A stretch of DNA of 64,000 bases from Fuerstiella marisgermanici (GTDB lineage: Bacteria > Planctomycetota > Planctomycetia > Planctomycetales > Planctomycetaceae), in the NCBI RefSeq assembly GCF_001983935.1, contig NZ_CP017641.1, positions 2,604,001-2,668,000 on the forward strand, read 5' to 3'. A program made the position numbers and the translations under genes. Below the pieces are notes generated by a model that was not told where the DNA came from, ran no database searches, and was given only the letters and a program-made list of their open reading frames with translations. Within the stretch, counting starts at the first letter, position 1. Each line of letters begins with the position of its first letter. Positions 5,994 to 52,463 of this stretch are shown in pieces.

Positions 5994-6118
5994 TTCGGCA
6001 ATGAAACACATCTTGGTGGATGGTTTACCTCAGCTTAAAGCTGCGGCCGTTTTGCGTTGGTGGCAACAAGAGATGAGTTGCAGGCATGTTAGCCGCAGCC
6101 ATCTCCGTTGCAACCAGT

Positions 6119-7435
6119 CTAGTTGCATCCGCCCGGAGCTGTGCAGGTTGGAGCACAGCAAGGATCGCAGGCGACAGCCACGCGACGGCAGACTACTCGA
6201 GGAACGCACTTGGTGACGGTGACAGGCACACAGCGAGGAACACACTTCGTCTTTGTGACCATCTTCGTTTCCACAACCTGTTCGCAGGTCGTGTAAGGAA
6301 CTCGCTTGGTGCAGGTCTGCTGAACCATGCGGCAAGTTGTGTAAGGAATTCGCTTTGTGACGCAGTGAGTTTCCATGCGGCACTTGGTGTAAGGAATTCG
6401 CTTCGTAACGCACTCATTCGTCCACGTACACGTTGTGTAAGGAACTTTCTTGGTGCAGGTCTCTCGGTGCATCGTGCAGGTTGTGTAAGGAATCCGTCGA
6501 GTACAAGTCTGCTGAACCATGGTGCAGGTGGTGTACGGAACCTTCTTGGTGCACGTTACAGGAACGCGGTGACACACGGTGTAAGGAACTTTGCGAGTGC
6601 AAACTTCGGGAACCATTCGAGTGCAGGTGATTGTCTTGTTGGCAGTGCATGGGACCCAACGCTTGCAGCAGATCGTGCGGCAAGGACCTGGGCAGCAAAC
6701 AATCTTTGAACAGCATGGGTTGCACGGATCAGGAACGCACTTCTTAACCATTGGGCCTGGCACCGTCTTGGTGTAGGTTTCCCAACGGCCACTCTGAACT
6801 GGAACCGTGCGAGTTTCAGTCACAGGCTTCATCACAGTGTAGCTGCAATCGCGGTAGCAGGTCTGTGTTTCCGTCTTGTACGTTGTGTAGCACTGTTCAC
6901 GGTAGCAGGTCTTGTAAACCGGCTTGCAAACGGTGTAACACTGTTCGCGATAGCAGGTCTTGTAGACAGGCTTGCAAACGTTGTAGCACACGTCGCGGTA
7001 GCAGGTCTTGTAAACCGGCTTACGGACGTTACAGGTAACTGTGCGGTAGCAGGTTTCCACAACCGGCTTGCACACATTGATCGTTTTTGTGCGGTAACAG
7101 GTTTCGTAGACCGGCTTGCAAACCGTGTAGGTCTCATCACGGTAGCACGTCTTGTACACGTTTCGAACACAGGAAACCGGAACGGTTTCGGTGCAGCGGT
7201 CAACAACGACTCGCATTCGTTGACATTGCTTTTGTTCCCACACAACTTCGCGGACCGTCTTGTACTGGACGCCGCTTCCACATTTTGCACCTGCGAAATC
7301 TCCGCAGGCATCGCAAGCGCCGGTTGGACACGATGCGTATCCACCGAGGCCTAACAAACCAGCATTCGTAGCTCCGCCGTTCATCAGCATGATTACTGCT
7401 GCAGCGGCTCCCACCATGAGCCTTTTCATTGCCAT
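6119..7435 (-). CDS. Exported Cys/Thr-rich repeat protein (planctomycete type)
   Basis: 438-aa low-complexity secreted protein. The N-terminus MAMKRLMVGAAAAVIMLMN is a clear signal peptide ending near ATNAG. Residues about 90-215 contain roughly eight tandem variants of a 16-residue unit resembling VCKPVYETCYR with D/E/K insertions. A linker (about 215-250, SGRWETYTKTVPGP) and a Pro/Cys patch follow. The C-terminal half holds a second series resembling CTRRIPYTTCTM, spaced 16-18 residues apart. Regular Cys and Tyr spacing suggests a disulfide-cross-linked beta structure at the cell surface. Similar repeat proteins are common in planctomycetes, but their function is not established. It has its own strong terminator and no operon partner. 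Confidence 0.85.
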   Translation of the reverse strand: MAMKRLMVGAAAAVIMLMNGGATNAGLLGLGGYASCPTGACDACGDFAGAKCGSGVQYKTVREVVWEQKQCQRMRVVVDRCTETVPVSCVRNVYKTCYRDETYTVCKPVYETCYRTKTINVCKPVVETCYRTVTCNVRKPVYKTCYRDVCYNVCKPVYKTCYREQCYTVCKPVYKTCYREQCYTTYKTETQTCYRDCSYTVMKPVTETRTVPVQSGRWETYTKTVPGPMVKKCVPDPCNPCCSKIVCCPGPCRTICCKRWVPCTANKTITCTRMVPEVCTRKVPYTVCHRVPVTCTKKVPYTTCTMVQQTCTRRIPYTTCTMHRETCTKKVPYTTCTWTNECVTKRIPYTKCRMETHCVTKRIPYTTCRMVQQTCTKRVPYTTCEQVVETKMVTKTKCVPRCVPVTVTKCVPRVVCRRVAVACDPCCAPTCTAPGGCN

Positions 7436-8020
7436 CTACCTTCTGAAACCGGGTTAAGTTGGGTGCGAGCGAAACGTCGTTGTCTGCTCGCAGAATGATT
7501 CACACAGTCTTCTTCGACTTCACAAACCACCCAACTTCACCTGCCGATCTGTTCTACGCCGATTGCGAAACCAGAACCCATTCGGTGAACCACATAACCA
7601 AATTAGCCGTTCCGAAGGTTTTCATCGGCGTTCCAGGCACGACCCGCACATCCGGACCACACGATGCGGGAATGAGAAGCAGTGGTTGGAATGGCTGAAG
7701 CCGGAAAGGTACCCGAGGCTTCCCAACGTTCACTAACCGGTAAGGTTTAACAGGTCGGGGCAGTCCGCCATTTGGCCAAAGCTGCGGCTGCGACGGCAGG
7801 GCGACACGGGTTGAGGACACGCGCCTGATGTGAGCCCCCGGCACTTCAGTTTCCACACCGGCCACCACACCACTACGCCCATCGCTGGTGTCCTCATTGC
7901 AGCACAGTGTAAGTTGCCCGCCTCGTGGGAATGACCCTGGCATGTGTTGCGGACCAACAATGCATTGCGTCCAAAGCCGTGACCCTGGGAACGTACCGTC
8001 TATCAGGACACCACTGCTCA
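7436..8020. other. Intergenic region without a supported gene
   Basis: The leader of the Cys-rich gene occupies the first part. The rest contains open frames on both strands (for example 7554-8021 minus) without recognisable domains or good ribosome sites. I could not assign a function to this stretch. Confidence 0.4.
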
Positions 8021-8580
8021 CAGCTCAGCAAGCCACATCATTCCCCAAGCAACCGATCCACCCAACGCCGGCGCTTCCGCTCCCACCAAGTTCACCAAGG
8101 CGCCACGCCAATCGCCCGTCGGTGCACACCGACCTGAACGCCATTTCGGGGCCGCGCACAACACCGCTTGCAGCTCAGTAAGCCACGCCCCCCAAAACAA
8201 CCGCCCCACCCAACGCCGGCGCTTCCGCTCCCACCCCGCTCACCAAGGCACCATGCCAACCGCCCGTCGGTGCACACCGACCTGAGCGCCGTTTCGGGCC
8301 GCGCACAACACCGCTTGCAGCTCAGTAAGCCACGCCCCCCAAAACAACCGCCCCACCCAACGCCGGCGCTTCCGCTCCCACCCCGCTCACCAAGGCACCA
8401 TGCCAACCGCCCGTCGGTGCGTACCGACCTGAGCGCCATTTCGGGGTCGCCCACAACATCGATCGCAGCTCAGCAAGCCACGCCCCCCAAAAAACAACCG
8501 CCCCACCCAACGCCGGCGCTTCCGCTCCCACGCAGCTCACCAAGGCACCACGCCAACCGCCCGTCGGTGCGTACCGACCT
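8021..8580 (-). repeat. Tandem array of about 3.8 units, period about 148 bp (family D)
   Basis: Units start at 8021, 8171, 8318 and 8466 with CAGCTCAGCAAGCCACG or a close variant, and end with the family D palindrome GGTGCGTACCGACC. Units 2 and 3 are almost identical. The last unit ends exactly at the stop codon of the hydrolase gene at 8579. The whole unit is conserved, unlike CRISPR repeat-spacer structure. Confidence 0.9.
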
Positions 8581-9265
8581 ACGAAAGGTCAAAGTGTTCG
8601 CCGACCTGGAGGACGACGGGGGTGGCGGAGGTCTGTAGATTGATATTGGTTTCCCATGCGGCCGTGTCCTGATTGATCAGTGGCCACGTGTTGTAGTGCT
8701 GCGGAATCACGATTCTGGGCGACAGGAAGTTGGTAGCTTTCACGCTGTCGTCTGGCCCCATGGTGAAGTTGTCGCCGATTGGCAGTACGGCGACTTCCAG
8801 GTCTTCGTCGCCGATCAACTGCATGTCTGAAAACAGAGCTGTGTCGCCGGCGAAGTAGATGTTGCCGTCGGCGGTCTTCAGAATGATGCCGGCGGGGTTT
8901 CCGCCGTAGCTGTTGTCTGGCAAAGCCGATCCGTGGTGAGCGATCGTGAGCTTCACGGTGCCGAAGTCAAACGCATGACTGCCGCCGATGTGCATCGCGT
9001 GGACGTTCTCCAGCCCCTGTCCCTGCAACCATGTGACGATCTCAAAATTTGCCACCACCAACGCGCCCGTGCGTTTGGCGATGTCGACGGTGTCACCGAT
9101 ATGATCGCCGTGCCCGTGAGTAATCAAGATTGCATCGGCGGCAACGGAATCTGCCGAGACAGTGGCCGCCGGGTTGCCGGTAAAAAACGGGTCCAGCAGA
9201 ATCGTCTTGCCTGCCGTTTCGACTTGAAAGGCGGAATGGCCCAGCCATGTAATTTTAGTTGTCAT
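8579..9265 (-). CDS. Metallo-beta-lactamase-fold metal-dependent hydrolase (UPF0173 type)
   Basis: 228-aa cytosolic protein of the UPF0173/YtkL-like group. The N-terminus ITWLGHSAFQVE, the metal-binding signature H-G-H-G-D-H (about residues 50-55), the later HIGGSHAFDFG, AGDTALF and the terminal IPQHYNTWP are typical. The substrate is unknown; relatives are often annotated as L-ascorbate-6-phosphate lactonase-like. Its start is 6 bases downstream of the pgi stop, so both are probably one transcript. The stop codon lies at the edge of the tandem repeat array. Confidence 0.92.
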   Translation of the reverse strand: MTTKITWLGHSAFQVETAGKTILLDPFFTGNPAATVSADSVAADAILITHGHGDHIGDTVDIAKRTGALVVANFEIVTWLQGQGLENVHAMHIGGSHAFDFGTVKLTIAHHGSALPDNSYGGNPAGIILKTADGNIYFAGDTALFSDMQLIGDEDLEVAVLPIGDNFTMGPDDSVKATNFLSPRIVIPQHYNTWPLINQDTAAWETNINLQTSATPVVLQVGEHFDLS

Positions 9266-16770: not shown

Positions 16771-17342
16771 AGATCAAGCGCGCCATACCGCGCGCTTGGC
16801 CTTCACAGCTTGACAAACTGGCACACTCACCTTGCACACGTTTGACCGCACACGTGATCGCGTCACCAACCGCGCTCACCTGCCAGGGTGGGATATCCCG
16901 CCGGCAAAGTGAACCTGACTCGCGCATCAACGCGCATCAGTAAAACCGACCTTCGACCACAACTTGCGCACCAACTTCATACGCCGTCACTATCGGCGAC
17001 CAACGGGAGCACCGCCGGCGATTCAGCCGTTACACCGTCACCCGTTAGCCACGCCAATCGCCCGCCGGTGCGCACCGGCAACAAAAACTGTTCGTCAAAA
17101 AATTCGGTATTAGAAAACATTTTGAAAGTATTTTAAGCCTTCTGCGCGCGAGCGGAAAAGCGCGTTGTGGAACGAGATCTTTCGGGCGAATCACCAATCG
17201 TTTCACTGGATTCAACAAGGGCCGACTCGTAAAATTCGCCCTCGGACCTGACCCCAGGTAAACCGACTACCAGATACCAATACGTCCTTGTGCGAACGGA
17301 TCTGTCAGCCATGCGCACGGGCCCGCCACAGGAAGCTTTTTG
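16771..17342. other. Intergenic region with a family D repeat
   Basis: No gene is supported. A family D repeat occupies 16995-17080. The final 250 bases form the leader of the receiver protein; AGGAAG lies just before its ATG. Confidence 0.5.
16995..17080 (-). repeat. REP-like family D copy, not at a gene end
   Basis: On the minus strand GCCGGTGCGCACCGGCGGGC, then GATTGGCGTGG, GAATCGCCGGCGGTGCTCCCG and GGTCGC. It lies more than 250 bases from either flanking gene. Confidence 0.7.
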
Positions 17343-20394: not shown

Positions 20395-20572
20395 GCCGGT
20401 ACGCACCGACGGGCGGTCGGTATGCACCGACGGGCGATTGGCGTGGCGGGCGGGTGAGCCGGATAGAAGCTGAAGCGCCGGCGATGTTCCCGCTGGTCGC
20501 CGGTAGGCACCGGCGGGCGGTTGGCGTGGGGGGGGCGGATGAGCCGGATTGGAGCTTAAGCGCCGGCGATGA
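20395..20572 (+). repeat. Family D repeats, two copies head to tail
   Basis: GCCGGTACGCACCGACGGGC at 20395, then GAAGCGCCGGCGATGTTCCCG and GGTCGCCGG; a second copy begins near 20500. They end about 100 bases before the next gene start. Confidence 0.7.
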
Positions 20573-23004: not shown

Positions 23005-23327
23005 GGTGATGCCGGTTCGTAATTCGGATAAGCGAAGTGAATGTCGAGACACGGGCCCTGAAAGGTTGGAACAAAGTATCTGGCAGGTTGTCGTGGATCG
23101 TTTCGACTTTCCCGGGCGCTTGTGAATGGTACAGGAAAAGCGGTCCGTGCGTCGTGCGGCCCTCCCCCGATCTTGCTTCGCTCGATCGACCCCTCCCGCA
23201 ATAAATTGCGGGAGGGGTTATTACATTCCGCGACTGTCTGCAGCGACCGACGGGAGCACCGCCGGCGCTTCAGCCTCCACCCGGCTCCCCCGCTCCCCAC
23301 GCCAACCGCCCGCCGGTGCGTACCGGC
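23005..23327. other. Intergenic region with a strong hairpin and a family D repeat
   Basis: Contains a copy of the GGCCCTCCCCCGATCTTGCT element (from 23158), ending in the perfect hairpin CCCCTCCCGCAA-TAAA-TTGCGGGAGGGG at 23191-23218, then the family D repeat. The hairpin may help stop transcription from glnA. Confidence 0.65.
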
Positions 23328-23328
23328 C
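23242..23328 (-). repeat. Family D repeat abutting the glnA stop codon
   Basis: On the minus strand, directly after TAG: GCCGGTACGCACCGGCGGGC, GGTTGGCGTGGGG, GAAGCGCCGGCGGTGCTCCCG, GTCGGTCGCTG. Same orientation relative to the gene as at 1429, 8579, 25281 and 28400. Confidence 0.8.
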
Positions 23329-24761
23329 TAAAAGTAGAGGGCGAATTCGTAGGGGTGAGGGCGTTGGTTGAGGGCGTCGACTTCTTCGGAGCGTTTGAAG
23401 CGGACCCAGTTCTCGATCACGTCCGGAGTAAACACGTCGCCTCGCAGTAGGAAATCGTGGTTGGATTCAAGAGCGGCCAAAGCGTGTTCCAGCGTCGCGG
23501 GCGTCGACGGCACGTCTCGTCGTTCTTCTGGCGCGAGGTCATACAAGTCTTTGTCCAGCGGCTTGCCGGAGCTGATGCGATTTTGGATTCCGTCCAGCAT
23601 CGCCATCAGCACGGCCGACATCGCGAGGTACGGATTGCAGGTAGGATCCGGGCACCGGAACTCAATGCGTCGATCTGCTTCGTCGCCGGAATTCACCGGG
23701 ATGCGAATCGCGGCCGACCGATTGCGGTAACTGTAGGACAGGTTGACCGGGGCTTCGAATCCGGGAATCAGTCGTTTGTAGCTGTTGGTCGACGGGCAGC
23801 AGAACGCCAGCAGGGACGGCGCGTGTTTGAGAATTCCGCCCATCGCGTACATGGCGGTTTCGCTTAGGCCGCCGTAGCCAGCGCCCGCGAACAGCGGCGA
23901 GCCGTCTTTCCACAAAGACAAGTGCAGGTGCAGACCGGAGCCGTTGTCGTTGAAGACGGGCTTGGGCATGAAGGTTGCCACTTTGCCGTGCCGAGCCGCG
24001 AAGTTGCGAGCCAGGTATTTCAGTCGCAGCAGGTGGTCCCCGGCGCGTTGTAGCGGGGCTGCTTTGAGGTCCAGGTGGCACTGGCCGCCAGTCGCGGTCG
24101 CTCGCTGCTGGCTGTTAACCGCCACGCCACTTTCCGCCAGCACCAGCATCAGTTCCGTGCGAAGGTCCTGAAGCGTGTCCATCGGCGGCATTGTGAGGTA
24201 GCCGTCGCGGTGACGAATTTGGTGAGCGGTCGACGATGGACGGTCGCTGTCGCCGTTCCATTCGCCTTCACTGCTGTCGATGCGGTAGTAGGCTTCGTGA
24301 GCGTTCTGGTCAAAGACAACGCTGTCGAACACGAAGAATTCGATGTCGCTGCCGACGTTGGCCTGGTCCGCGATGCCCGTCGACTGCATATACATTTCGG
24401 CCTTGCGAGCCACATGGCGGGGGTCTCGCGGATAGCTTTGGTGCGTGACGGGATCCTTGACGTTGCACAAAATCGCGAGCGTGTTCTGCAGGCACGGGTC
24501 GACGAACGCCGTCTGAGCATCGGGGACGATCAGCATGTCACTTTCATGAATCGCCTGCCAACCCTGCATGGACGAACCGTCGAAGCCGAACCCGTCTTCG
24601 AACCTGGCTTCGGTCAGCTGTTCGGCCGGGATCGTGACGTGTCTTTGTTGGCCCAGGAAATCGGCGAAGCGAAGATCAATCGCACGGATTTCGCGCTGGC
24701 GGCACAGGGCGAGGACTTCTCGCGGAGACTGTTCTTTCAATGGCTGAGCGGTCGCTGTCAT
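23328..24761 (-). CDS. glnA: Glutamine synthetase, type I
   Basis: 477-aa GlnA, condensing glutamate and ammonia with ATP in nitrogen assimilation. Signature FGFDGSSMQGW, metal-binding region GSDIEFFVFD, NDNGSGLHLHLSLW and the glutamate flap IPGFEAPVNLSYSYRNRSAAIRIP are present. DKDLYDLAPEE keeps a Tyr where GSI-beta enzymes are adenylylated, so GlnE-type control is possible. The length fits a dodecameric GSI. The gene stands alone; a family D repeat touches its stop codon. Confidence 0.95.
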   Translation of the reverse strand: MTATAQPLKEQSPREVLALCRQREIRAIDLRFADFLGQQRHVTIPAEQLTEARFEDGFGFDGSSMQGWQAIHESDMLIVPDAQTAFVDPCLQNTLAILCNVKDPVTHQSYPRDPRHVARKAEMYMQSTGIADQANVGSDIEFFVFDSVVFDQNAHEAYYRIDSSEGEWNGDSDRPSSTAHQIRHRDGYLTMPPMDTLQDLRTELMLVLAESGVAVNSQQRATATGGQCHLDLKAAPLQRAGDHLLRLKYLARNFAARHGKVATFMPKPVFNDNGSGLHLHLSLWKDGSPLFAGAGYGGLSETAMYAMGGILKHAPSLLAFCCPSTNSYKRLIPGFEAPVNLSYSYRNRSAAIRIPVNSGDEADRRIEFRCPDPTCNPYLAMSAVLMAMLDGIQNRISSGKPLDKDLYDLAPEERRDVPSTPATLEHALAALESNHDFLLRGDVFTPDVIENWVRFKRSEEVDALNQRPHPYEFALYF

Positions 24762-24972
24762 GATTTGAAGTTTTGCAGAGGCGCGAGACCCGTGGAGATT
24801 CGGTTCGCCGGGATAGGATGAAGAAATGCTCGCCTGATGTCACATGTTAGCGGATCGCGCGGCGAGGGCGAGCGTGGGAAGGGGAGGGAAAACAGAAGAA
24901 GTCGCCCGCGGATTTTTCTCCTTCTGCCCCAGCCTTCATCGTTCAGCCCTCATCCCGTACACTGCCACGGCT

Positions 24973-25281
24973 ATGCCCAAACTGCCTCAAAAACGCGAAC
25001 CCCAGCCCGACGTCCCCACTGTGCCGATCGCATTGCTGGTGACGCTCATGGTCAGCTTCGCGTTTTTCGGATTGCTGGCCGTGATCCTGCCCGGCGCCGG
25101 GATGATGGCCCTGACCATGTTCGTCCTGGGAGTCTTCTTCTGGCTGCAGTACGTGATCTGGGGCAAGTGGCTGTTCGGACTCGCGGTAAGAATGGAACAC
25201 AAGGCTGAAGCGGCCGAACGCCAGAAGGAAGAACGAATGGCCACGAACCAACACCAATCCCCAAACACCGATTCACCATAA
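24973..25281 (+). CDS. Small two-helix membrane protein
   Basis: 102-aa protein with two predicted membrane helices (about residues 19-40 and 44-66: IALLVTLMVSFAFFGLLAVIL and MMALTMFVLGVFFWLQYVIW) and a charged C-terminal tail. No family recognised. The ATG at 24973 follows a 200-base leader. A truncated, diverged copy of its 3' half lies at 25702-25866, beyond an array of repeats, so the locus has undergone duplication. Confidence 0.6.
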   Translation: MPKLPQKREPQPDVPTVPIALLVTLMVSFAFFGLLAVILPGAGMMALTMFVLGVFFWLQYVIWGKWLFGLAVRMEHKAEAAERQKEERMATNQHQSPNTDSP

Positions 25282-25284
25282 CTC

Positions 25285-25300
25285 CGTTCCACGTGAAACA
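25285..25300. promoter_or_regulatory. parS-like site 1
   Basis: CGTTCCACGTGAAACA, one base from the Bacillus subtilis parS consensus TGTTCCACGTGAAACA bound by ParB/Spo0J. It lies 4 bases after the preceding stop. Confidence 0.6.
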
Positions 25301-25427
25301 CGCCGGTACGCACCGGCGGGCGGTTGGCGTGGGGGAGCGGGTGAGCTAGATGAGAGCTGAAGCGCCGGCGGTGCTCCCGATGGTCGCTGGAGAAGGGTTG
25401 CGGCGAGGCGGGCAGAGCGCGGCTTTG

Positions 25428-25443
25428 TGTTCCACGTGAAACA
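25428..25443. promoter_or_regulatory. parS site 2 (exact consensus)
   Basis: TGTTCCACGTGAAACA, identical to the B. subtilis parS 16-mer. Confidence 0.75.
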
Positions 25444-25575
25444 GGCCGGGCCGGTATGCACCGGCGGGCGGTTGGCGTGGGGGAGTGGGTGAGCCGGGTG
25501 CGAGCTGAAGCGCCGCCGGTGCTCCCGTTGGTCGCTGGAGAAGGGTTGCGGGGAGGCGGGCAGAGCGCGGCTTTG

Positions 25576-25591
25576 TGTTCCACGTGAAACA
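25576..25591. promoter_or_regulatory. parS site 3 (exact consensus)
   Basis: TGTTCCACGTGAAACA again, exactly 148 bases after site 2, within the next repeat unit. Confidence 0.75.
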
Positions 25592-25701
25592 GGCCGGTAC
25601 GCACCGGCGGGCGGTTGGCGTGGGGGAGCGGGTGAGCTGGATGAGAGCTGAAGCGCCGGCGGTGTGCCCGGTGGTCGCTGGAGAAGGGCGGAGGCTGGCT
25701 G

Positions 25702-25866
25702 ATGTTCGCGCTGGGCGTCTTCTTTTGGCTGCAGTACGTGATCTGGGACAAGTGGCCGTTCGGACTCATGGTGAGAATGGAACACAAGGCAGAAGCCGCC
25801 AGGCAGCAACAGCAATCGCCGATCGCTGCGGAGCAGAAGCCGCTTGCCGATGCCTATCCGAACTGA
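25702..25866 (+). pseudogene. Truncated duplicate of the two-helix membrane protein gene
   Basis: Starting at an internal ATG it reads MFALGVFFWLQYVIWDKWPF and continues GLMVRMEHKAEAARQQQQ, 54 codons to TGA. Residues up to MEHKAEAA are nearly identical to the second helix and following segment of the 24973 gene; the tail then differs. The first helix is missing and repeats precede it, so it is probably a decayed duplicate, though a short protein could still be made. Confidence 0.7.
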
Positions 25867-25870
25867 GACT

Positions 25871-25886
25871 CGTTCCACGTGGAACG
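25871..25886. promoter_or_regulatory. parS-like site 4 (perfect palindrome)
   Basis: CGTTCCACGTGGAACG, two-fold symmetric variant of the parS core with mismatches only at outer and one inner position. Confidence 0.55.
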
Positions 25887-25921
25887 GGTTGCACCACGAC
25901 GTATCTCGATCTCATTGAATT

Positions 25922-26145
25922 CGTTTAACCCGCAGCCGGAGGCGCAGGCGTCCGCTCTGACGTGGGATTCGCTAGCAACGATCGGAAACTTACTGTCGGT
26001 GCTTTCGCAGCTGCGGCTGGACGCCCCAGCCGCAGCACTTCCGATCGAACCTTCGGCGACAGGCTGCTGCCGACCGTGTGTCGGATCATCAAACTGCGTT
26101 CAGCCCGCCACGCTCACGCCTGCGCCTCCGGCTGCGGGTTAAACG
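25922..26145. repeat. Foldback element family C, copy 1
   Basis: CGTTTAACCCGCAGCCGGAG-GCGCAGGCG at 25922-25950 is repeated in perfect inverse orientation at 26117-26145. The interior has its own hairpin (GCTGCGGCTGG...CCAGCCGCAGC). It lies between parS-like sites 4 and 5. Other copies are at 46528, 47248 and 52174. Confidence 0.85.
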
Positions 26146-26188
26146 ATCCAACCGCGACAGATCGACTCTGGAGAGAACGATCGACGTC

Positions 26189-26204
26189 TGTTTCACGTGG
26201 AACG
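26189..26204. promoter_or_regulatory. parS-like site 5
   Basis: TGTTTCACGTGGAACG, 13 of 16 positions match the B. subtilis consensus and 13 of 16 match the TGTTTCACGTGAAACA variant. It is about 95 bases upstream of the glycosyltransferase start. Confidence 0.55.
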
Positions 26205-26297: not shown

Positions 26298-28400
26298 ATG
26301 AAGCTTCCCTGTTCCAAACCCGAACTCGTCCTTGTCGGCATGGCCATCGTAATGGGCGTGTTGCTGCGAGTTCAGCATCTGGACCGACTGGCCGTCGAAC
26401 ACTTTGACGAAGGCGTCTACGCCGCTGGCCTGTGGCACGACGGCGACTTTGGGACCTCGTACCCGCATCGTCAACTGTATGCACCGCCGCTGCTGCCGAC
26501 GATGATTGAAGTCAGTTCTGCCATCACAGGGCATCAGCCGTGGGCCGTTTTTCTGCCGAGCCTCCTTCTGGGCTGTGCCACCATCCCGCTGATGTGGTGG
26601 CTGGCTCGCATGAGCTTCGGAATGAACGCCGGACTGTTCATCGTGTACGTGGTTGCTTTCAGTGACTACCACATTCAGTTTTCTCGCATGGCGTTAACAG
26701 ACGTGCCCGTGCTGTTCTGGATGACTCTGGCCGTGACCGTCGCAGCAGCGGGAATCAATCGCAGTTCGTACCAGCTGATGATCGTCGCCGGAATCTGCTG
26801 CGCCGCAGCGTGGTGGACGAAGTACACCGGCTGGTTACCGCTGGCAATCGTCAGTAGCGGAGTTGCCTTTCGATGGCTACTGAGACAACGCACCATCGCG
26901 ACGTTCAGGACATCGGCCGCGCTGGTTCTGGTGATGGCTGCGACGGCCTTCGTCTGCTGGTCGCCCTGGCTTTGGATGTTGCAGGACGCTGGCGGCTATG
27001 CGGCCGTCGCTGCGAACCATTCTGGCTACTACACCGGGTTGAGTCAGTGGCAGAACAACATGGCGGCTCACATCATGTACTACTTCCACTTCGACAGCTG
27101 GCTGGCCGCGCTGGCTGTGATCGTTGGCATGATGGCCGCCGGAAGTCGGCGCTGGATGGAACTGGCTCAATCAAGACCTACCGATCAAATAGCCACCGAC
27201 GCCACTTCCACTGACGCCGCGCCTTCCAAATCGACAACAGCACCAGCATGGTTTCCGCCGCCACGGTTGCTCGCCAAATTCTGCAGCACAGCACTAGTGA
27301 TGGGCGTGGTGGCGACTGGTGTGAGTTCCGTTGGGCTGCTGACATGTCTTGGAATCGGCGGCCTGGCTGGAATGTTTCTGTGGCCAACGTTGACGGAGTT
27401 GCACCGTCGCCGAGTCGAACAAGACACGTCGCTGATCATGCCGGGCGGCGCAGGTTTCTTTCCGGCCGATATGAGAGCCGCACCGGCCATCGATCCCATG
27501 ATCGGATTTGCCTTCGCGGCATCGTGGCTGTTGGGAATGGTGTTCGCCACGCCGATGTATTCTCCGTTCCCTCGATTGTCGATGCCTCTGCTGGCGTCGA
27601 TCTGGCTGGCCGGAGCAGGCGGCGTGGCATGGTGGATGGAAGCCAACACCAACGTCGCTCGCCGAAGTCCGATCGACGATGTCCCACCGCCCGGGCCACT
27701 CAAGCGAATCGTCAACGCGATGGTCGTGGTCGCGTTAGCGCTCACGATTTCAGTCACGGGCGGTATCCGAACACCAACCATCTGGCGCGACCGAACGTCG
27801 CTGCGAGATGCGTCGTGGCATCTGGGGGAAGCCGCTTTGCAGGATGCGGCGGGCAAGTTTCAACCCGAAGCCATTCCGTGGGTCACCGAGGAGGATGGCA
27901 TCATCCGTCCCGATCCGCCGGAACAATTTGACGAAGACGGCAACCTGATTCCGCCGCCCGGATTTATGGCTCAACTGTACGAACGGATTTCAAAACCGTA
28001 CGACACCTCGACACCACTCGCGGACATCGACAAACCAACCTGCGTCGTCTACGGGTTCGGCGAACCGTCCGTGTTGTTCCATCTTCGCAACGCCGGTTTG
28101 AATGTATCTCCGGTCCAGGACGTCAACTTCCCACCAGCCGCGTTGAACGGCGAGGAACTCCCGACCTACCTGGTCCTCGGTCCGAATGCGCTGCGCACCG
28201 AAGAACTACTCTACGACTGGACAGTCGCCCAGTACCGGTTCGAGCATGTCGCCGACTTCCGTTTCGCGCCGAGTGACGTCGTCCTCTTCAATCTCTTCTC
28301 CCCCATGTTCGTCTCACAACACGACGAAGCCTACGTCCAAAAACTCGAACTCTATCGCGTCGGTACGCACCGACAGGCGGTTGGCGTGGCAGGCGAGTGA
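26298..28400 (+). CDS. GT39-like membrane glycosyltransferase
   Basis: 700-aa polytopic inner-membrane protein resembling the ArnT/PMT (glycosyltransferase 39) group, which moves a sugar from a polyprenyl-phosphate donor to lipid or protein on the periplasmic face. The first helix is followed by HFDEGVYAAGLW, whose Asp-Glu pair matches the catalytic acidic motif of the family, then several hydrophobic helices to about residue 490 with a His/Arg-containing FSRMALTDVPVLFWM. The C-terminal 200 residues are soluble. The acceptor is unknown. The last codons (VGTHRQAVGVAGE) and the stop derive from a family D repeat, so the ancestral C-terminus was replaced. Confidence 0.82.
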   Translation: MKLPCSKPELVLVGMAIVMGVLLRVQHLDRLAVEHFDEGVYAAGLWHDGDFGTSYPHRQLYAPPLLPTMIEVSSAITGHQPWAVFLPSLLLGCATIPLMWWLARMSFGMNAGLFIVYVVAFSDYHIQFSRMALTDVPVLFWMTLAVTVAAAGINRSSYQLMIVAGICCAAAWWTKYTGWLPLAIVSSGVAFRWLLRQRTIATFRTSAALVLVMAATAFVCWSPWLWMLQDAGGYAAVAANHSGYYTGLSQWQNNMAAHIMYYFHFDSWLAALAVIVGMMAAGSRRWMELAQSRPTDQIATDATSTDAAPSKSTTAPAWFPPPRLLAKFCSTALVMGVVATGVSSVGLLTCLGIGGLAGMFLWPTLTELHRRRVEQDTSLIMPGGAGFFPADMRAAPAIDPMIGFAFAASWLLGMVFATPMYSPFPRLSMPLLASIWLAGAGGVAWWMEANTNVARRSPIDDVPPPGPLKRIVNAMVVVALALTISVTGGIRTPTIWRDRTSLRDASWHLGEAALQDAAGKFQPEAIPWVTEEDGIIRPDPPEQFDEDGNLIPPPGFMAQLYERISKPYDTSTPLADIDKPTCVVYGFGEPSVLFHLRNAGLNVSPVQDVNFPPAALNGEELPTYLVLGPNALRTEELLYDWTVAQYRFEHVADFRFAPSDVVLFNLFSPMFVSQHDEAYVQKLELYRVGTHRQAVGVAGE

Positions 28401-28445
28401 CGGTGTGAAGGCTGATGCGCCGGCGGTGCTTCTGTAAGTCGCTGG
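28359..28445 (+). repeat. Family D repeat providing the end of the glycosyltransferase frame
   Basis: GTCGGTACGCACCGACAGGC, GGTTGGCGTGG, GATGCGCCGGCGGTGCTTC and GTCGCTGGG. It overlaps the last 14 codons and supplies the TGA of the upstream gene. Confidence 0.75.
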
Positions 28446-29315: not shown

Positions 29316-30230
29316 ATGAAGAATGCCGTTCGATCATTTTTGAACTATCTCAAAGTTGAACGCAACGCGTCACCACTGACCATGAAGTCATACGGGGACG
29401 ACCTGATTCACCTGCAGGAATTCTTTGAAGAACAGCACGGGCACATCCCCGAACCGTCCGACGTCAACGTCAGCCAGTTGCGAACGTATGTGGCTTACCT
29501 TCACGAATGCGGATACGCGCGAGCCACGGTGGCTCGGCGACTGGCGTGCCTTCGCAGCTTCTTCCGATTCTGTAATCGCGAAGGCATCTGCGAAACGAAT
29601 CCAGCAAAGCCACTCAGAACGCCTCGCGCTGGCCGCAAACTGCCTCACTTTCTGACCACGGACGAAGTCGGCCGACTACTCTCCACGCCACCGGCCAACA
29701 AGAACGATGGGCTGCGTGATCGAGCGATCCTGGAAACGATGTACTCAGCGGGCTTGCGTGTTGCCGAACTGGTGAGCCTGAACCTTAGCGATTTGGATCG
29801 AGCGTCGGGAATTGTTCGAGTGCTCGGTAAGGGACGTAAAGAACGGGTCGCTCCGATTGGCAGCTTTGCGTTGAAAGCCTTGGCAGCCTGGCTGGACGTT
29901 CGCAAACCAGACACAACCGCCAGCGCCGCAGAGCAGGACGCGTTGTTTCTGAATCGTTTCGGCAAGCGTCTGACAACTCGCAGCATCGGGCGAATGCTGG
30001 AAAAGCATATTAAGATCGCGGGCCTGTCGATTCAGACATCACCCCACACACTGCGTCACAGTTTTGCCACTCATCTTTTGGACGGAGGCGCGGACCTTCG
30101 AAGCGTGCAGGAACTATTGGGACACAAGAGTCTCACGACCACACAAATCTACACGCACGTCAGCACTCGCCGCCTGAAAGAAGCCTACGAAGCGGCTCAC
30201 CCGCACGCTCAGCCACACACTCAATCGTGA
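29316..30230 (+). CDS. xerC: Tyrosine recombinase, XerC/XerD type
   Basis: 304-aa site-specific recombinase of the Xer class, which resolves chromosome dimers at dif. The SAM-like N-terminal core-binding domain spans about 1-90. The catalytic domain has Arg in [11 protein letters not shown], Lys in [10 protein letters not shown], the H-x-x-R box [19 protein letters not shown], the second His of [10 protein letters not shown] and the nucleophile Tyr in IYTHVS. The length and NxNP-type inter-domain region match chromosomal Xer rather than phage integrase. XerC versus XerD is not certain. Its last 10 bases overlap the convergent regulator gene. Confidence 0.92.
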
Positions 30231-46525: not shown

Positions 46526-46527
46526 AT

Positions 46528-46685
46528 CGTTTGACCCGCAGCCGAAGGCGCAGGCGGTGCTCACGCGGTCCCGTGTGTGGCAAGGCTTCTCGAGAACAGT
46601 CAGAGGTTGCAGCCTCGTTGTTGTGGCCGGAATCCACCAAACAACCGTCAGAGCGCCGCCTGCGCCTTCGGCTGCGGGTTAAACG
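46528..46685. repeat. Foldback element family C, copy 2
   Basis: CGTTTGACCCGCAGCCGAAG-GCGCAGGCG at 46528-46556, inverted at 46657-46685 with one difference. The interior (GGTCCCGTGTGTGGCAAGGC) is nearly identical to copy 3. Confidence 0.85.
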
Positions 46686-47168: not shown

Positions 47169-47247
47169 CCAAGTCGCGGTGGGGCAGGCTCCTGCCTGCC
47201 GATTCTTATTCCGGCCGTCAGACACCCTACCCGCCGGTCGCCCCGAT

Positions 47248-47404
47248 CGTTTAACCCGCAGCCGAAGGCGCAGGCGCTGCTCACGCGGTCCCGTGTGTGG
47301 CAAGGCTTCTTGAGAACGTCAGAGGTTGCAGTATCGTTGTTGTGACCGGAATCCACCAAACAACCGTCAGAGCGCCGCCTGCGCCTTCGGCTGCGGGTTA
47401 AACG
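47248..47404. repeat. Foldback element family C, copy 3
   Basis: CGTTTAACCCGCAGCCGAAG-GCGCAGGCG at 47248-47276, inverted exactly at 47376-47404. Confidence 0.88.
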
Positions 47405-52166: not shown

Positions 52167-52463
52167 CGGAAATCGTTTAACCCGCAGCCGAAGGCGCAGG
52201 CGTTGCAGGACACGGCTTCGTCGCAGTGGAAACGGAAGAATTATGGACACCAATTAAAGAACACCTGCAATTTCGCAGGCGTGCGCCGGGGATGGTTGAT
52301 TCGGCGCCACACTGAGATGTTATGGATGCCGTCAGAGCAGCGCCTGCGCCTTCGGCTGCGGGTTAAACGAGCGGCTGCGGCTGGAAGGCGCAGGCGTTGC
52401 CAGGAATTTGTGCGATAATCGGAATGGGCTCGACTCGGGAGAGTTCGAGCTACGAGGAAAATT
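52167..52463. other. Intergenic region with a family C foldback
   Basis: The element at 52174-52369 occupies most of the gap, with an extra half palindrome to about 52400. No gene is supported. Confidence 0.6.
52174..52369. repeat. Foldback element family C, copy 4
   Basis: CGTTTAACCCGCAGCCGAAG-GCGCAGGCG at 52174-52202 and its inverse at 52341-52369. The interior differs from copies 2 and 3, so only the ends define the family. It starts 8 bases after the DUF1549/DUF1553 stop. Confidence 0.85.

Follow-up and report, generated by a model that had tools for sequence, protein, structure and literature searches.

The par genes of bacterial chromosomes usually, although not universally, lie beside parS. 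The ParABS centromere is already known as a kind, and so are intragenic parS sites: according to one survey (PMC4368675), parS is mostly located in the 20% of the chromosome around oriC, and nine of the ten parS of Pseudomonas aeruginosa PAO1 most likely lie in coding sequences. The Noc/NBS system has a homologous DNA-binding protein family and a related palindrome; Noc proteins carry Gln and Arg at the equivalents of ParB positions 173 and 201 and Lys at 179/184, and six parS-contacting residues are listed as conserved across ParB and Noc (PMC7383237). Planctomycetes divide by budding, in part without FtsZ. Their chromosome segregation looks hardly studied, and we found no study of parS in this phylum in the literature searched.

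Here we analyzed a window of 64,000 nucleotides from Fuerstiella marisgermanici, whose genome is a single contig of 8,920,478 bp; positions refer to the window unless given in Mb. A cluster of palindromes at 25285-26204 (about 2.63 Mb on the chromosome) is, with a probability of roughly 0.8 judged from sequence comparison, the chromosomal parS centromere of this species and the sole one by exact motif, on which the ParB encoded at 3.19 Mb would load. The locus resembles the chromosomal ParABS systems of Bacillus, Caulobacter and Pseudomonas in the 16-bp palindrome family and the clustering of several sites, in a ParB with the equivalents of R173 and G201, and in the recurrent linkage of parS and parB among relatives. 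Unlike the usual arrangement, parS here lies far from each of parB, the best parA and dnaA, and the constant parS neighbour in the family is a gene for a PMT-type glycosyltransferase, with an in-gene parS at one alignment column in several lineages. The sites of these relatives are like the intragenic parS of PAO1 in being written into protein-coding sequence, and differ from them in that one gene and one alignment column are reused across distant species, while the window species itself is without the in-gene site. No report of such reuse was found in the open-licence papers.

All five palindromes that a sequence-only reading had reported are present, exact at 25428 and 25576 and variant at the other three places. 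Site 1 (CGTTCCACGTGAAACA, 25285-25300) has one mismatch to the 16-mer and starts 3 bases past the stop codon of a small gene, here called gene X; sites 2 (25428-25443) and 3 (25576-25591) are both the exact 16-mer, TGTTCCACGTGAAACA; site 4 (CGTTCCACGTGGAACG, 25871-25886) is a perfect palindrome with three mismatches on either strand and starts 3 bases past the stop codon of a partial copy of gene X; and site 5 (TGTTTCACGTGGAACG, 26189-26204) has one mismatch on the minus strand. We take the palindrome to be parS by its consensus, with which, in the B. subtilis form, two of the five sites are identical. With the two strands counted apart, the window contained 12 matches with at most three mismatches, while 100 shuffles gave 0.75 on average and 7 at most. 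Exact copies of the 14-bp core GTTYCACGTGRAAC begin at 25286, 25429, 25577, 25872 and 26190, and these five are the only ones in the whole genome, all inside 919 bp, against about 0.13 expected by chance with equal bases and none for a reversed-pattern control. With one mismatch allowed, seven further places were found, two of them less than 70 kb from the cluster; given that the control yielded four at up to one mismatch, these places mean little. Scattered sites or the lack of a ParB homologue would have spoken against a partition centromere, as the sequence-only reading had pointed out; all five exact sites are clustered and a ParB homologue is present. The candidate centromere that it proposed is supported by the genome-unique sites, by a ParB with parS-type residues, and by the occurrence of parS, parB and the neighbouring gene together in many relatives. 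The link with the PMT gene, the in-frame parS of relatives and the distance from parB, parA and dnaA emerged from the present analysis rather than from that reading.

Along the locus, the order is gene X, parS 1, a tandem array that includes parS 1-3, the partial gene X copy, parS 4, a 226-bp stretch, parS 5 and the PMT gene. Gene X (24973-25281, plus strand; 102 aa, with a longer frame at 24844-25281) is predicted to encode a small hydrophobic protein and had no hit in a Pfam search; DNA coding for a gene X-like stretch lies upstream of PMT in three of the seven same-genus relatives. The array (25286-25688, plus strand) comprises 2.8 copies of a 148-bp unit with parS at the start of each unit, the rest of the unit being a dispersed repeat. 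Sites 2 and 3 are 148 bp apart and sites 1 and 2 are 143 bp apart. The earlier suggestion that tandem duplication had multiplied the sites was therefore right but incomplete, since sites 1 and 2 belong to the same array and site 4 follows a second duplication. The partial copy of the gene X 3' half (25702-25867, plus strand) shares a 99-nt match at 89% identity and ends in a stop codon. As parS 1 and parS 4 start equally far, 3 bases, past the stop codons of gene X and of its copy, respectively, the duplication probably took in the 3' end of the gene together with its parS. The 226-bp stretch between sites 4 and 5 (25921-26146) is delimited by a perfect 31-bp inverted repeat, the arms of which recur elsewhere in the genome, pairwise at 46527-46685, 47247-47404 and 52173-52370 of the window and also in two other sampled stretches (L082 and L124). 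This structure looks like a small dispersed inverted-repeat element.

The genome contains four ParB-family matches, at 3.194, 8.021, 5.625 and 4.058 Mb, the last of which is under the family cut-off, and seven ParA-like matches; none of the four and none of the seven falls inside the window, as the sequence-only reading had said. The protein encoded at 3.19 Mb, 564 kb from the cluster, matches TIGR00180 above its cut-off, contains MKRRLGRGLNALLG, and can be aligned to Caulobacter ParB (6t1f, E 3.8e-51) as well as to Noc structures. Residue equivalents were placed by hand on the printed alignment, in which the chain numbering is ten below that of PMC7383237. Among the six contacts shared by ParB and Noc, N178 and R204 are kept in this protein and the positions of Q162, G170, K171 and S172 differ. 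In nine ParBs encoded within 20-kb parS loci of relatives, R173, N178, G201 and R204 are kept in all and the other four contacts vary; par-linked ParBs of planctomycetes also differ at these positions. The closest pattern was that of a ParB whose gene lies 135 bp from parS (genome G045) and which has the same residue at eight of the ten positions compared. None of the seven ParA-like matches lies near 3.19 Mb. The best of them, at 8.273 Mb, stands alone, is 39% identical to the par-linked ParA of G117, and is 3.3 Mb from parS round the circle. With dnaA at base 73, the contig start, and thus 2.63 Mb (29.5% of the chromosome) from the cluster, parS, parB, the best parA and dnaA are all separate in this genome.

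In the relatives, the exact core occurred at least once in 122 of 148 genomes and was absent from 26, compared with 10 of 148 for the reversed control, and where several sites were listed for a genome, they shared a contig and fell within 15 kb of one another in 46 of 49 cases. We placed parS in 47 family genomes, namely our own, seven of the same genus, 12 complete or near-complete ones with sites and 27 others, the last being 28 selected genomes with 2-5 sites less G061 (one of the three sites of G041 is also missing from the listing). Outside the placement stood genomes with one site, some with 2-5 sites (for example, G009, G021, G065, G068 and G087), and the site-rich G043 (16), G044 (13) and G070 (11). 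One place per genome was taken for PMT, the best at E up to 1e-20, and likewise only the best one for parB; three of the 47 had no PMT place and one had no parB place. On this basis, parS lay within 5 kb of the PMT orthologue in 33 of the 44 family genomes with both placed, and parB lay within 5 kb of parS in 20 of 46. Among ten placed class genomes the corresponding figures were 3/5 and 7/10; outside this tally are G092, although its 20-kb locus has PMT at parS, and other class genomes, for example G091 and G109 with scattered sites. PMT and parB were at most 10 kb apart in 26 of 50 genomes with both. The 11 family genomes without parS near PMT include five drafts with the two on different contigs, one with a distance of 8.4 kb on the same contig and five in which they are truly apart; many relatives are drafts, in which cases scored as other contig may be near or far. 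Among 11 complete or near-complete family genomes, two pairs of which share a genus, the distance from parS to the PMT start is at most 5 kb in five and 5.7 kb in a sixth. This sixth, G054, counts as near by the nearer PMT end (4.9 kb) and not by the start, and its parB is 1.0 Mb away. Other arrangements also occur: in G011 and G020, PMT and parB are together and the exact parS sites are 330 kb and 2.1 Mb off, and in G008, G040 and G080 parS, PMT and parB are all apart. Two class relatives of another family (f3; G091 and G109) carry 24 and 48 exact sites, with GTTCCACGTGGAAC at all places listed, scattered over contigs, and the motif is thus not confined to one place in that family.

From the recurrent proximity of parS, PMT and parB in family and class genomes, we infer that the ancestral order of the locus was probably PMT-parS-parB. 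All eight Fuerstiella genomes have parB away from parS: the distance is 564 kb in the closed genome, and in the seven others the two are on different contigs, which for the larger contigs puts them at least tens of kb apart. In the nearest non-genus genome by PMT score (G012), parB is 8.7 kb from parS. Thus, parB would have left the locus in this genus; on the PMT tree, G012 may branch outside the genus or within it.

The PMT-type membrane glycosyltransferase gene (26298-28400, plus strand; 700 aa; PF13231 and PF02366) is the conserved neighbour. In all seven same-genus relatives, the exact parS sites (2-5 per genome) lie on one contig within 2.7 kb, around the PMT orthologue, and one is inside the PMT reading frame, in frame 1, where it encodes R-S/F-T-W-N. 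The window gene has QSRPT at this column, without a site, and the five sites lie upstream instead. When public genomes were scanned with the alignment of PMT, 80 loci were obtained; in 48, the exact core is present somewhere in the fetched DNA. A frame-1 parS was present at one alignment column in 20 of 74 aligned orthologues; five further orthologues encode the same peptide there (R or G, S or F, T, W, N) from a site that differs by a single synonymous change, and L160 and L166 have RSTGN with a one-base change. Exact motifs among these 25 peptides (20 seen against about 0.18 expected from own-gene codon usage) describe a constraint at the DNA level, in a comparison in which the rows are related, most were chosen for carrying the motif and every row was treated as R-S-T-W-N. 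In a quick PMT tree, the deep forks of which are weak, the 20 in-gene rows fell in four places: a Fuerstiella group (9), an L170-L182 group (6), L191/L192/L218/L224 (4) and L190 alone. A shuffle test of the in-gene label on this tree was set aside, as 47 rows did not enter it and the 20 in-gene rows were compared with 7 near-misses only. The in-gene parS may be either old with frequent loss, or regained. Two or three in-gene sites, 42-114 bp apart and all in the same frame, occur in L171, L175, L176, L181 and L182. The alignment varies in length across the stretch that contains the in-gene peptide. In the L126 protein as modelled by AlphaFold (mean pLDDT 87.7), the peptide corresponds by offset to residues 291-295, which puts it near the end of a long helix (269-299) and ahead of a lower-confidence loop. 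A single long reading frame in the orthologue L226 (match 6001-8847) contains eight exact parS cores, every one of them in frame 0 instead of frame 1.

Because of established ParABS biology, we infer that dimers of the 3.19-Mb ParB would bind each of the five palindromes and close as CTP-dependent clamps, that these clamps would slide outward over adjacent DNA that includes the PMT gene, and that the complex would be moved by a ParA ATPase and would help load SMC. Partition itself is proposed on the same analogy, and the ParA that serves it may or may not be the best match at 8.273 Mb. As for its history, the locus may have descended from a PMT-parS-parB ancestor, several lineages having a parS within the frame of PMT; parB would have come to lie elsewhere in this genus, and in F. 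marisgermanici the in-gene site would have gone and the upstream sites multiplied, both by the 148-bp tandem duplication and by duplication of the gene X 3' end together with its parS. What was counted against the parS-centromere reading is the distance of parB and ParA, the four changed contacts, the Noc model score described below, the 26 of 148 relatives without the exact motif, the 11 family genomes with parS not near PMT, and the 24 and 48 exact sites of G091 and G109.

Could the palindromes be mere passengers of a dispersed repeat family that was duplicated here by chance? The 148-bp unit outside parS is indeed dispersed: of 66 sampled stretches, 8 contain it, at 15 other places in all, with 7 in the 64-kb window against 8 in the other 65 stretches (about 1.3 Mb), and sites 1-3 differ little from one another. 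However, parS was not found within 60 bp of any of the 15 other places, the genome has no other exact site, and in relatives parS occurs at the same gene with other flanks and within its reading frame. We therefore rejected the repeat by-product reading on the genome-wide exact-site count and the repeat copies without parS, and consider it very improbable. Somewhat less remote, but still improbable, is binding by some other ParB-like protein, either of the Noc type or from a mobile element, which would serve nucleoid occlusion, gene silencing or maintenance of the element. There are three more ParB-family genes in the genome, the one at 8.02 Mb with an adjoining ParA-like gene, and Noc gave the best NCBIfam score for the 3.19-Mb protein (220.6 bits, above the score of the ParB domain model), albeit below the Noc cut-off of 315. 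At the positions equivalent to 173, 179, 184 and 201, however, this protein has R, M, E and G, and thus R and G rather than the Q and R of Noc; the gene for its orthologue is at most 5 kb from parS in 20 of the 46 family and 7 of the 10 class genomes counted above, and the motif is that of parS by its consensus. Both the specificity residues and the motif are unlike Noc/NBS and of the ParB/parS type, and the Noc/NBS reading was rejected on these residues and the sub-threshold score. Within the window, copies of the dispersed repeat include those at 1334-1421, 8063-8580, 16996-17079, 20415-20571, 23237-23329 and 28358-28445, one of which overlaps the 3' end of the PMT gene.

A more serious alternative, which we hold possible though doubtful, accepts the centromere and places it near the terminus or in mid-arm, with the origin at dnaA or near 6.3 Mb, in which case partition would not start at the origin. 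The 29.5% distance of dnaA is in its favor; as an origin test, this distance was rejected as a guide in the family, where dnaA and parS are separated by 24.8-45.1% of the chromosome in 9 of the 12 complete or near-complete genomes (the lengths of G080 and G082 being rounded in this comparison). Skew at sampled fourfold sites together with gene orientation gave an asymmetry axis of about 1.7-2.6 / 6.2-7.1 Mb, with parS (2.63 Mb) at its edge and dnaA off it; permutations as good as the observed data numbered 2/300 for the skew, 14/300 for gene orientation and 35/300 for AT skew. The top strand is G-rich at fourfold sites over the arc that begins at about 6.3 Mb, crosses position 0 and ends at about 2 Mb, with the best fit at 6.29 Mb. 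The leading strand is usually G-rich, and by this sign the origin would lie near 6.3 Mb, with parS in the half of the chromosome around the terminus; an origin at parS would give a leading strand that is C- and A-rich at fourfold sites, the opposite of the usual sign. Gene orientation, which rests on mechanical ORF calls, argues the other way: it fits an origin at 2.63 Mb best, with 359 of 619 genes (58.0%) on the leading strand, as against 312 (50.4%) for dnaA and 264 (42.6%) for 6.29 Mb. Thus, gene orientation and skew sign conflict over which end of the axis is the origin, and we lean towards parS as the origin side because genes seldom favour the lagging strand. The location of most parS near oriC in the survey cited above also counts against a terminus or mid-arm position. 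Plain GC skew of our sampled genome was flat, coding-corrected skew in two relatives (G132 and G040, 20 stretches each) was uninformative, and no clusters of DnaA boxes were found in the 1.36 Mb sampled. In G132, sampled 20-kb stretches of a single contig (C1) switch in GC skew between about +0.35 and -0.38, a pattern suggestive of a mosaic assembly or of numerous inversions.

If the cluster is the centromere of F. marisgermanici, it would be one that stays with a single protein-coding gene across deep divergence, with its site written into the reading frame, and, as the strain is in culture and its genome closed, such a defined centromere would be open to testing. The parS cluster could also serve as a marker for the replication origin where dnaA seems a poor guide. 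The bond between parS and the glycosyltransferase gene in Planctomycetia, the one-column in-frame site and the separation of parB, parA and dnaA in Fuerstiella were not found in the open-licence literature, which is weak evidence of absence. More speculatively, and in our view unlikely, parS may be held in or beside the PMT gene at a cost in codon choice, outlasting its bonds to parB, parA and dnaA; the gene may then help to place the centromere, for example if, in budding cells, its transcription is coupled to membrane insertion of the product, and this place rather than dnaA may be where replication starts.

Finally, some minor observations concern replication and recombination genes. A search for a dif-like core with at most two mismatches gave four matches against five for the control; one of them, at 7206772-7206792 of the chromosome (G000:C1), has a perfect XerD half-site and lies nearly opposite parS, in a count that is not above the control. 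A second, shorter DnaA-like gene (a frame of 337-344 aa) is present at the contig start, apart from the full-length dnaA, in three relatives (G045:C1:64-1017, G082:C1:61-1017 and G092:C1:19-975). In the window, a gene for an XerC-type tyrosine recombinase lies at 29316-30230, 3 kb from the parS cluster; it scores 356.8 bits with TIGR02224 (cut-off 335.15) and slightly below the cut-off of the XerD model.
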